Positions 55,698 through 57,734 of a stretch of DNA of 64,000 nucleotides are shown piece after piece. Position numbers and translations under genes: made by a program. The stretch spans positions 186,001 to 250,000 of the forward strand of contig NZ_JOFL01000011.1 of the NCBI RefSeq assembly GCF_000719265.1. Reading direction: 5' to 3'. Below the pieces are notes generated by a model. It searched no databases. It was not told the DNA's origin and saw only the letters and a list, made by a program, of their open reading frames with translations. Each line of letters begins with the position of its first letter. The first letter of the stretch is position 1. The DNA is from Streptomyces roseoverticillatus (lineage in GTDB: Bacteria; Actinomycetota; Actinomycetes; Streptomycetales; Streptomycetaceae).

Positions 55698-55762
55698 GAG
55701 CGGCGTCCTGACCGGCGTCGCCTACCGTCTGCTGTGGGCCTGACGGCAGGGGTGGTCGGCGG

Positions 55763-56503
55763 CTAGCTCAGATGCCGGGCGAAGAACCGGGCCGCGGCGT
55801 CCCCCGCGAACTGCGGGACGCCGGCGTGCCCGCCCATATTGGCGTGCAGGGTCTTCTCCTGGGAGCCGAAGGCGTCGAACAGGTCCAGGGCCGCCTGCCG
55901 GTGGTTCCCTTCGTCGTCCCACTGCAGCAGGACGTGCAGCGGAATGGTGACCTGACGAGCCTCCTCGAACATGGCGCGAGGCACGAAACTCCCGGCGAAC
56001 AGAGCGGCGGCCGCGATGCGCGGTTCGACCACCGCCAGCCGGATGCCGATGGAGATCACTCCCCCCGAGTATCCGACCGGGCCGCAGATCCCGGGCAGCG
56101 AAAGGAGGGCGTCCAGGGCGGCCTGCCATTCCGGGACCACCTTGTCGACCAGCGGGAGGACGAGAGCGTCGACGATCTCGTCGCTGACCGGCTCGCCGGC
56201 CTCCAGCGCCCGGCGCAGGTCGGCGCGGGCCTGCTCGGCGGCGGCCCAACGGGGCCGCTCGCCGCTTCCGGGAAGCTCGATGGTGGCCGTGGCGAAGCCG
56301 TCCGCCGCGGACCGCCGGGCCCGGGCCACCAGCCGGGGATACATCTTGCGCAGCCCGAGGGGAGGGTGGCCGAGGAGGATCAGCGGCGCCGGTGCGGATG
56401 CGGATGCCGATGCGGGCGTCCACAGGATGCCGGGGATCTCGCCGAGGGAGAATTCGCGCTCGATGACGCCGTCGTCGAGACGCTGCTCAGAAGTGAAATG
56501 CAT
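55763..56503 (-). CDS. Alpha/beta hydrolase (dienelactone-hydrolase-like), leader-controlled
   Basis: 246 residues. Nucleophile elbow GYSGG (about residues 143-147). The catalytic acid is probably in LLQWDDEGN and the His in MGGHAG near the C-terminus. A cap-like helical insertion lies around residues 85-125. Such enzymes hydrolyse esters or lactones; a role in resistance to a lactone or other drug is suggested by the control region but not by the sequence itself. ATG 56503, SD AAAGGG at 56511-56516. The 5' leader holds a 17-codon ORF and alternative hairpins (see separate entries). Confidence 0.8.
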   Translation of the reverse strand: MHFTSEQRLDDGVIEREFSLGEIPGILWTPASASASAPAPLILLGHPPLGLRKMYPRLVARARRSAADGFATATIELPGSGERPRWAAAEQARADLRRALEAGEPVSDEIVDALVLPLVDKVVPEWQAALDALLSLPGICGPVGYSGGVISIGIRLAVVEPRIAAAALFAGSFVPRAMFEEARQVTIPLHVLLQWDDEGNHRQAALDLFDAFGSQEKTLHANMGGHAGVPQFAGDAAARFFARHLS

Positions 56504-56562
56504 GGTCGTGCCCTTTCGGGAGTGCTCAGAGCGGCGCTCCCGGACGACCTGTCTATCGTCCG
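56504..56562 (-). promoter_or_regulatory. Candidate translational attenuator before the hydrolase gene
   Basis: Two mutually exclusive structures in the minus-strand RNA. Stem A: CGGACGA (56562-56556, last codons of the leader ORF) with TCGTCCG (56547-56541). Stem B: GGTCGT (56549-56544) with ACGACC (56509-56504), extended by CGGGAG (56542-56537) with CTCCCG (56522-56517); it encloses the hydrolase SD AAAGGG. A ribosome on the last leader codons prevents A and favours B (off). A ribosome stalled earlier allows A and frees the SD (on). Confidence 0.6.
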
Positions 56563-56606
56563 ACCGTGACCCCGGAGGGGAGCACCCATGTCGATACTGC
56601 GTTCAC
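56553..56606 (-). CDS. 17-residue leader peptide with near-perfect SD
   Basis: GTG 56606 to TAG 56553, peptide VNAVSTWVLPSGVTVGR. The SD AAGGAGGTGG (56611-56620) is almost fully complementary to 16S rRNA and stands 5 nt before GTG, far better than most SDs in the window. The peptide resembles no structural protein; its position 49 nt upstream of a gene whose SD is hidden in a hairpin fits a regulatory leader peptide (erm- or cat-like). Confidence 0.65.
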   Translation of the reverse strand: MNAVSTWVLPSGVTVGR

Positions 56607-56643
56607 GGGTACCACCTCCTTGTTCTCTCGCACGGCCTCCGAA

Positions 56644-56683
56644 AACGTAGCAGTCGTCGTCGTGGCTCGCCAACGGGTTTTAC
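56644..56683 (-). promoter_or_regulatory. Putative WhiB7-type promoter for leader/hydrolase transcript
   Basis: On the minus strand: AT element GTAAAAC (56683-56677), 3-4 nt gap, -35 TTGGCG (56673-56668), 18-nt spacer, -10 TACGTT (56649-56644). An AT-tract just upstream of the -35 is what I recall for WhiB7-dependent antibiotic-induced promoters of actinobacteria. Confidence 0.45.
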
Positions 56684-56851
56684 GGAGCAAACCGGCGGCG
56701 CGAACCGGCGGCGCGCGCCGACCCGGCCGTAGCAGGCACCTCCGCTGGTTTTCCGTGCAACAAACCTCCCTTCTCGGCCCCGAACCAGCCATAGTCGACC
56801 CCAGCCACATTTCGCCTGGCGCCCCCGTACCGTTCTTGACACTCTGCCGCG

Positions 56852-57586
56852 GTGCTGCGTATTCACTTCACGGACACGGACTTGCTCAACACCCGCGTGG
56901 CGACCGCGCCCGACCCCCGGTGGGAACTGGTGCTGAGTCTGCGGCACTTACGAAGACGTGTCGTGCCGCCGCGCTACGCCGCCTGGCACCGCGAGGTGCT
57001 CTCCCGGTTGTCGCACCCGCAGCCGCCGGAGGCCTACCGCGAGGTGGCCGTCGACCCGTACTGGGAGGACGTCCGCACGAGCGTCGACGGCGACCGCGCC
57101 CTGCGGATCCGGGCGCTCCTCGACGGCGGGGTCAACGGGCTGCTCCGCAGCTACGTGCCGATCATGCGATGGATGCCGCCCACGCTGCACGTGCGCAGCG
57201 CCGTGGACAGGGACTACGCCCTGCGCGGCAGGGGGCTGCTGCTCCAGCCGTCGTACTTCTGTTACGGCGTGGGGCACCTGCCCGAGGATCCGGACGCCCC
57301 GCCCGTCCTCGTGCACCCGGCGGCCCAGCCGCAGTCGGATCCCGCCGGTGACAAGGCGCTCGCCCGCCTCATGGGGGCCACCCGCGCCGGGATCCTCATC
57401 GCGGCCGGGACCGCCTGCACGGCCGGTGAACTGGCCCGCCGCGTGGGCGTGTCCGCGCCGACGGTGAGCCATCACCTGTCGGCCCTGCGGGACGCGGGCC
57501 TGCTCCGGACCGTGCCGCACGGCACCACCGCGTTGCATGTGCGGACCCGCACCGGGTCCGCGCTCGTGCATTCGAGCTGCGAGTGA
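56852..57586 (+). CDS. ArsR/SmtB-type winged-helix regulator with DUF5937-like N-terminus
   Basis: 244 residues. The N-terminal 150 residues (LRIHFTDTDLLNTRVA, then WELVLSLRHLRRR) match the DUF5937-type domain of Streptomyces ArsR-like regulators. The C-terminal HTH is TAGELARRVGVSAPTVSHHL, then SALRDAGLLRTVPHGTT (about residues 190-225). GTG 56852 gives the family N-terminus and has no SD, so the mRNA may be leaderless (TTGACA lies 16 nt upstream). It diverges from the hydrolase transcript and might regulate it. Metal-binding cysteines are not evident. Confidence 0.78.
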   Translation: MLRIHFTDTDLLNTRVATAPDPRWELVLSLRHLRRRVVPPRYAAWHREVLSRLSHPQPPEAYREVAVDPYWEDVRTSVDGDRALRIRALLDGGVNGLLRSYVPIMRWMPPTLHVRSAVDRDYALRGRGLLLQPSYFCYGVGHLPEDPDAPPVLVHPAAQPQSDPAGDKALARLMGATRAGILIAAGTACTAGELARRVGVSAPTVSHHLSALRDAGLLRTVPHGTTALHVRTRTGSALVHSSCE

Positions 57587-57734
57587 GCTGCGCGTTTCGA
57601 CGAGATTCGAAGGCGCTGTCCTTCTCCGCGCCGATTCGACAGGATGGCGCTCGAAAACGGAACGCTTCCTGCAAGCCGCCGAACGGCTGGACAGCCGAAA
57701 CGGCTGGAACAGCCGAAAACAGGAGGGCTTTCGT

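Follow-up and report, generated by a model that had tools for sequence, protein, structure and literature searches.

A conserved leader family with an erm-like layout ahead of unrelated actinobacterial enzyme genes, probably tuned to arrest at the first codons

Introduction

In Streptomyces roseoverticillatus (GCF_000719265.1, contig NZ_JOFL01000011.1), a stretch of 64,000 nucleotides, here called the window, encodes an alpha/beta hydrolase whose Shine-Dalgarno sequence (SD) is predicted to lie in a hairpin behind a short open reading frame (ORF). Such an arrangement raises three questions: whether the leader is a switch, what it would read, and whether it belongs to this hydrolase. Sequence comparison indicates that the window leader is one copy of a conserved RNA leader family that precedes several unrelated actinobacterial enzyme genes.

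Anatomy of the window leader

All features lie on the minus strand and are given in window numbering, with the kind of evidence in brackets.

56681-56678, 56673-56668 and 56649-56644, minus strand: promoter, with A-tract AAAA, -35 box TTGGCG and -10 box TACGTT, respectively (read from sequence)
56621-56612, minus strand: leader SD, AAGGAGGTGG (sequence and alignment)
56606-56553, minus strand: leader ORF of 17 codons with GTG start and TAG stop, reading VNAVSTWVLPSGVTVGR
56604-56619, minus strand: region 1, the leader ribosome-binding site (RBS) and start, 5' arm of helix A (1:2) (pairing counts and swap test)
56574-56590, minus strand: region 2, codons 6-11, 3' arm of helix A (alignment pairing)
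56586-56579, minus strand: 5' arm of helix B (2:3), the part of region 2 formed by codons 7-10, GGTGCTCC (alignment pairing)
56533-56540, minus strand: region 3, GGAGCGCC, 3' arm of helix B and 5' part of stem C (invariant columns)
56562-56555, minus strand: 5' arm of the competing stem B2, CGGACGAT, the last leader codons (alignment pairing)
56548-56541, minus strand: 3' arm of stem B2, GTCGTCCG, overlapping the 5' arm of outer stem D (alignment pairing)
56541-56537 and 56522-56518, minus strand: inner stem C (3:4), GGGAG with CTCCC (sequence and alignment)
56549-56544 and 56509-56504, minus strand: outer anti-SD stem D, GGTCGT with ACGACC (sequence and alignment)
56568-56562 and 56637-56631, minus strand: helix E, CACGGTC with GGCCGTG (alignment pairing)
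56511-56517, minus strand: hydrolase SD, GAAAGGG (sequence and alignment)
55763-56503, minus strand: alpha/beta hydrolase of 246 aa (coding sequence after the leader)

The original prediction had read from this DNA a 17-codon ORF with its SD, a nested anti-SD hairpin, a competing stem made by the late codons and an AAAA/TTGGCG/TACGTT promoter, and all four are in place. The fold of the window's leader RNA differs only mildly from that of its shuffles (z -1.92, with 6 of 200 shuffles equalling or bettering it), so the claim of structure rests on comparison; for a shorter 3' part of the same RNA the fold is not unusual against shuffles (z 0.00). Inspection by eye for an intrinsic terminator found no U-run after the last hairpin, directly behind which come GAAAGG and the start codon.

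Conservation with the hydrolase

Conservation of the small ORF was a central expectation for this locus, and it is borne out: the leader ORF precedes the hydrolase gene in 80 of 80 loci chosen on the hydrolase protein alone (the best 80 of at least 543 confirmed relatives). The genera in this set are Streptomyces, Kitasatospora, Planotetraspora, Microtetraspora, Micromonospora, Thermomonospora, Nonomuraea, Actinomadura, Kutzneria, Georgenia and Pseudofrankia. Within the genus, the leader pattern is present in 80 of 199 genomes, and a reversed control pattern gave zero matches in the genus genomes among the matches listed; in 30 of 30 loci taken from the 80 pattern places, hydrolase homology lies just downstream.

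The ORF is 16 or 17 codons long and ends in TAG in 111 of 111 hydrolase-branch leaders read, 30 of which were drawn by a leader-based pattern and are not independent. It starts with GTG in 110 and with ATG in one. Changes of length among the leaders consist of in-frame 3-nt indels in the ORF and one 4-nt indel at the stop, which in sequence terms are the marks of a coding stretch. Comparative conservation thus points to a short leader ORF with its own RBS ahead of the main gene.

Near relatives keep leader DNA no better than coding sequence (0.889 versus 0.918), so the case for the leader rests on distant branches. In the 14 loci whose hydrolases are most distant (65-78% protein identity), the leaders match at 0.85-0.97 of their DNA positions, and DNA further upstream of the hydrolase loci has a mean identity to the window of about 0.45, the level of unrelated sequence. 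In the hydrolase branch, codon diversity is 0.081 for conserved leader codons versus 0.186 for conserved hydrolase codons (P=0.005). Recent spread was also weighed as the whole cause of this conservation: the hydrolase itself is conserved, at the codon diversity just given, and the leader of near relatives is no better kept than the gene, which leaves the distant branches to carry the argument.

Helices and their pairing

Alignment A1, comprising 109 distinct leaders, brings out two helices beyond those proposed before. Helix A joins the RBS and start with codons 6-11, and helix B joins codons 7-10 with region 3, whose columns are invariant in 109 of 109 leaders. With inner stem C and outer stem D, judged by sequence, these make up the 1:2, 2:3 and 3:4 set of an erm-like leader.

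The share of paired cells is 99.6% in helix A, 99.9% in B, 99.5% in stem B2, 99.3% in stem C, 97.8% in stem D (hydrolase branch) and 98.9% in helix E; in the same order, pairing-keeping versus pairing-breaking changes number 30 versus 7, 25 versus 1, 22 versus 4, 6 versus 5, 6 versus 12 and 9 versus 8. Taken together, the changes in the stems mostly keep pairing. Covariation within the hydrolase branch is slight, with a single double change, in B2.

Swapping arms between leader groups gives an alignment-free test of the same pairings. On 75 leaders in 7 groups (from 262 of 263 leaders, at most 12 per group), this test supports A (P=0.001), B (0.032), C (0.033), D (0.0003) and B2 (0.0165) and gives no support to a control pairing (0.83); duplicates were still present among these leaders, as among the 112 used for folding below. 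A first version, using other segments of 174 of 180 leaders, supported D (0.0027), C (0.003) and A (0.046), and left B (0.79) and B2 (0.89) unsupported. The arms, their pairing and the later swap test point to mutually exclusive helices, one of which closes the SD of the main gene; B and B2 lacked support in the first swap test. Outer stem D, which the earlier model had made central, keeps its place through the between-branch swaps and is the least kept stem among near relatives.

One leader family ahead of unrelated genes

Of 296 genomes from the window's class, 66 (spanning 26 of 114 genera) match a covariance model built from A1; 30 places were made into loci and 40 more were fetched, with some strong ones left out. 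Read singly, the weak matches prove to be the same leader again, with MNAVSMWVLPLPVTAGRLT or a close variant. The genes behind it differ, and encode a second hydrolase branch (44-50% identity), flavin monooxygenases (FMOs), GNAT acetyltransferases or patatins. A second covariance model matches at least 119 of 394 genomes of the class (at least 42 of 137 genera), 103 of 150 in one family, 30 of 248 in one order and, in a phylum-wide draw, 11 of 198, of which 11 of 11 are in the window's class; these draws overlap one another. For its class matches, 30 places were made into loci and 54 were fetched, weighted to weak scores, and this model revealed a further group of PrmC-related methyltransferases. 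The window's own genome carries a PrmC-like leader outside the window (L273; C11:22728-22868, E 1.7e-5), and three genomes (G778, G840 and G875) have five leader-model matches each.

With duplicates removed, 269 leaders became 241, of which 237 could be parsed (L223, L235, L279 and L280 were dropped); coordinates were found for 22 of L118-L147. One of five protein families lies downstream in 240 of the 241 distinct leaders: alpha/beta hydrolases (146 in the main branch and 18 in the second), rifampin-monooxygenase-like FMOs (23), GNATs (15), patatins (11) and PrmC-like methyltransferases (27), with L219 unlabelled. These proportions are no survey, because many hydrolase rows entered via the hydrolase itself. 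A held-out set of 50 loci contained 41 new leaders, 39 of them with one of the same families downstream; the exceptions are L317 and L344. In L317 the leader runs into unrelated sequence after the post-stop arm and has no long ORF behind it, perhaps as a broken or recombined copy.

The leader had been proposed as the control of this hydrolase. The association stands, in that every protein-chosen hydrolase locus has it, but the proposal is too narrow for a leader common to unrelated genes. Between families, leader identity averages only 0.69-0.85, yet layout, spacing and own-arm pairing are kept.

Rfam contains no family scoring over its gathering threshold at window positions 55700-57700, where the best matches are at chance level and outside the leader, nor at the leaders of 20 loci from other branches, where the best are at chance level and below the gathering score. 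Among open-licence PMC papers, no title or abstract found reports the leader, and the peptide strings STWVLPS, STWVLSS and TWVLPSG have zero occurrences in those searched.

RNA geometry or arrest peptide

Read in the frame of the start codon, 235 of 237 distinct leaders have a stop immediately ahead of region 3; read in the other two frames, 4 and 14 do. The ORF is therefore kept, even where the start position is unusual. That position is ATT, ATC, GTT or GTC in 26 of 26 parsed PrmC-like leaders (L229, L233, L234, L236, L237, L239-L244, L246-L256, L273 and L276-L278), in both held-out PrmC-like ones and in 5 of 17 second-branch hydrolase leaders. Leaders with such starts have a frame that still ends at the usual place and an in-frame GTG 9 nt upstream, inside the SD, which may be where translation truly begins.

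Region 2 (GGTGCTC) lies 17-21 nt from the start codon in 236 of 237 distinct leaders. Across families, this same segment is read in three frames. Because the distance is kept and the frame is not, the position of the ribosome, rather than a WVLP arrest peptide, is probably what is sensed.

The original prediction had instead assumed arrest on the leader peptide, as in erm and cat genes: a drug-bound ribosome would stall on STWVLP in mid-leader, and B2 would break the outer anti-SD stem and open the SD. Several observations fit this reading, namely the arms of B2, which compete with stem D, the low diversity of leader codons in the hydrolase branch, and the presence of WVL in frame in 146 of 146 main-branch hydrolase, 16 of 17 second-branch, 23 of 23 FMO and 22 of 26 PrmC-like distinct leaders. 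The codon constraint, however, is equally explained by pairing; W is replaced by R in 3 of 111 hydrolase-branch leaders; and region 2 is in another frame than WVL in 8 of 9 patatin, 8 of 15 GNAT and 4 of 26 PrmC-like leaders. The peptide segment is thus kept in the hydrolase and FMO branches and lost to other frames elsewhere, although the RNA beneath it is kept. Peptide arrest is unlikely on this evidence, and since a conserved arrest peptide is not a property of the family, the leader is classed as working like the erm and cat attenuators, not as a member of them.

Proposed switch and folding with a ribosome on the leader

The preferred reading, considered somewhat probable, is a translational attenuator with erm-like logic, represented in the window by a single member of a portable family of leaders. 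In the resting state, region 1, which includes the leader RBS, would pair with region 2, and region 3 with region 4, closing the hydrolase SD. A ribosome held with codon 1 or 2 (at most 3) in its P site would cover region 1 and free region 2, which could capture region 3 during transcription, so that region 4 and the hydrolase SD would stay open. A ribosome that moved further would cover region 2 itself. Comparison shows the anatomy, its conservation, stem changes that mostly keep pairing, the occurrence ahead of five protein families and the fixed spacing; the switching, its direction, its signal and any action of the enzymes on drugs are inferred. Modelled in this way, the switch probably turns the enzyme genes on when a ribosome is jammed at the start of translation. 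Because pairing 2:3 is predicted mainly with a ribosome at codon 1 or 2 and would be prevented by further movement, the most likely signal would be an inhibitor of the kind exemplified by lincosamides, streptogramin A and pleuromutilins, which arrest ribosomes at the first codons, and not nascent-peptide arrest. For two Streptomyces upstream ORFs, arrest at the first codon by such drugs is reported (PMC12421871).

Folding was computed by ribosome position for 112 leaders, at most 22 per family. The nascent fold is that of the RNA transcribed just to the end of region 3, with part of the leader masked by a ribosome footprint, and its 2:3 score is a pair-probability sum over 8, which can pass 1. 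With P-site codon 1 or 2 this score is 1.01 or 0.90; it falls to 0.10 at codon 3 and to 0.00 at codons 4, 6 and 9, and is 0.13 with no ribosome and 0.28 with a ribosome at the stop codon. In PrmC-like leaders it reaches 0.55 with no ribosome. Held-out leaders (35 parsed of 41) give 1.08, 0.88, 0.17 and 0.05 at codons 1-4 and 0.20 with no ribosome, and shuffling region 3 in these 35 nearly abolishes the pairing (0.12, 0.09, 0.04 and 0.01 at codons 1-4). With a shorter footprint (front at +12 or +13), codon 3 also permits 2:3 (0.66 and 0.61), so the range that can safely be claimed is codons 1-3.

Opening of the SD is the weakest step of the model: the mean fall in energy is small, and in the window's leader it is reversed. 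The mean opening energy from SD to ATG falls from 8.5 to 7.4 kcal/mol with region 3 taken, or to 6.5 with region 3 and the B2 arm taken; the corresponding change for the window's own leader is a rise, from 6.0 to 8.9 or 9.4 kcal/mol. At equilibrium the full-length RNA keeps C and D, and the mean 2:3 score is no more than 0.21-0.22 even when a ribosome sits at codon 1 or 2; the window's leader reaches 0.74-0.81. Equilibrium folding of the 112 whole leaders gives no clean opening of the SD, and its accessibility by ribosome position in the hydrolase branch shows a weak trend, from a mean of 0.65 to 0.40.

Promoter and WhiB7

The promoter had been likened to the WhiB7 type, and the window's promoter agrees, in relaxed form, with the published WblC/WhiB7 consensus GAAAWY-N3-TKGMNN-N16..19-TANNNT (PMC7157823). 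Among the copies, the relaxed motif occurs in 94 of 151 upstream regions versus 0 of 151 further upstream, at a shuffled rate of 0.0003. The strict consensus, tried as a rule for the copies, fails in most of them (7 of 151 conform). WhiB7-like promoters precede 84 of 146 main-branch hydrolase, 9 of 18 second-branch, 15 of 23 monooxygenase and 14 of 15 GNAT distinct leaders, and were not found ahead of patatins (0 of 11) or PrmC-like genes (0 of 27). Three loci (L021, L027 and L045) have neither an A-tract nor a -35 box of the WhiB7 kind upstream, though leader and hydrolase are intact. Seven WhiB-family matches over cut-off were found in the window's genome. In many hydrolase, monooxygenase and acetyltransferase copies, a WhiB7-type promoter would be a second control beside the leader.

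These promoters also bear on whether the leader answers a drug at all. It could be a general sensor of its own initiation (rate, fidelity or ribosome supply), as the inclusion of the leader RBS in region 1, the unusual start positions of every parsed PrmC-like leader and the missing WhiB7-like promoter of that branch would suggest. Against a sensor with no dedicated drug, the WhiB7-like promoters of the hydrolase, FMO and GNAT copies point to antibiotics, as do the rifampin-monooxygenase scores of the two FMOs scanned, above or at the cut-off, which makes this explanation decidedly unlikely.

The enzymes and the movement of the module

The window hydrolase, a candidate resistance enzyme in the original prediction, has GYSGG at 144-148, D197 and H226 in its 246 aa. 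Its predicted fold resembles many esterases and lipases and names no drug substrate; a macrolide esterase is absent among the 50 structure matches listed, which excludes nothing. The one NCBIfam entry listed for it is UilS, at 21.7 bits and so far below the cut-off of 400. D197 and H226 are kept in 40 of 40 proteins, and Glu or Ala stands in place of Ser146 in some main-branch copies. At the nucleophile elbow, 24 of 24 second-branch proteins in alignment A3 read GINMG or GLNMG, Asn taking the place of the Ser found in the 4ao6 esterase. By their sequences, some hydrolase copies may not be ordinary serine hydrolases.

Two of the 23 distinct FMOs were scanned against the rifampin monooxygenase model (NF033145, cut-off 800) and scored 832 (L148) and 799.3 (L149); for one scanned FMO the best solved structure is Rox (5vqb, E 4.1e-202). 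The one PrmC-like protein scanned (L233) belongs to TIGR03704, with 416.9 bits versus a cut-off of 248.8.

An N-terminal extension of at least 10 residues is present in 18 of the 23 monooxygenases (L148, L151-L154, L156, L158-L161, L164, L166, L168, L191, L195, L197, L199 and L200). All 18 extensions resemble the N-terminus of the second-branch hydrolases (P at most 0.01 versus shuffled extensions), and the longest, of about 40 residues, reaches RAPL, next to the hydrolase's GHGGG. These remnants suggest that a leader, together with the 5' portion of a hydrolase gene, came to sit ahead of a different enzyme. Copies of the hydrolase occur in 33 of 72,556 plasmid records as well, which makes recent transfer likely.

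That the leader is simply a conserved coding and initiation stretch moving with its genes, its pairings mere by-products, fits the plasmid records, the strong conservation and scarcity of double changes within the hydrolase branch and the leader of near relatives being no better kept than the gene, but is very improbable given that diverged families still keep layout, spacing and own-arm pairing and that DNA further upstream of the hydrolase loci is at the level of unrelated sequence.

Beyond the attenuator itself stands a wider proposal, possible though somewhat doubtful: a portable sensor of start-codon arrest would have spread as a 5' module, within one actinobacterial class, to no fewer than five unrelated families of enzyme, in some cases through recombination within the coding sequence. 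It would mark unrecognised inducible enzymes that modify antibiotics or protect the ribosome, with any gene behind it a candidate, and its PrmC-like branch may sense fidelity of initiation.

Significance and comparison with known systems

If the attenuator reading is true, one RNA model would find inducible genes of any enzyme family across a class rich in antibiotic producers and could serve as a discovery tool for new resistance enzymes. It would also mean that a regulatory leader can move between genes independently of the product it regulates, and that an attenuator can depend on the geometry of a ribosome at the first codons and not on an arrest peptide. The target of rifamycins is RNA polymerase; to find an enzyme resembling rifampin monooxygenase behind a leader that senses the ribosome would call into question the true substrate of the FMO branch.

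The closest known systems are the erm and cat attenuators, which have a short translated leader, a 1:2/2:3/3:4 arrangement, the SD of the main gene in the last hairpin and a mid-leader arrest peptide. The first three of these features recur in the present leader family. The differences are that its spacing fits arrest at codon 1 or 2 and not a mid-leader arrest peptide, that the peptide segment over region 2 is not kept in all branches, and that one leader family would serve unrelated genes.

The ARE5 genes of Streptomyces (tiaA, are5sc) also have an actinobacterial upstream ORF; they differ in their leaders (MLV and MVGDDDISG), in the terminator/anti-terminator structures proposed for them and in the genes downstream (PMC12421871). 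The macrolide esterases EstT and EstX are, like the window hydrolase, cytosolic proteins of the alpha/beta hydrolase type; their catalytic residues are reported as Ser102, Asp230 and His258, in contrast to GYSGG 144-148, D197 and H226 here (PMC12704417). Promoters activated by WblC/WhiB7 are alike in sequence, sharing the A-tract a few bases before the -35 box, the TANNNT -10 box and the allowed spacing (PMC7157823); the strict consensus holds in just 7 of 151 leader copies. Two leader-linked FMOs score, one over and one just under, around the cut-off for the rifampin monooxygenase Rox; the FMOs of this family differ in sitting behind a leader that would read the ribosome and, in most cases, in carrying a hydrolase-like N-terminal extension. 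Set against these systems, the leader is probably a new attenuator family, erm-like in logic, tuned to first-codon arrest and common to unrelated enzymes.
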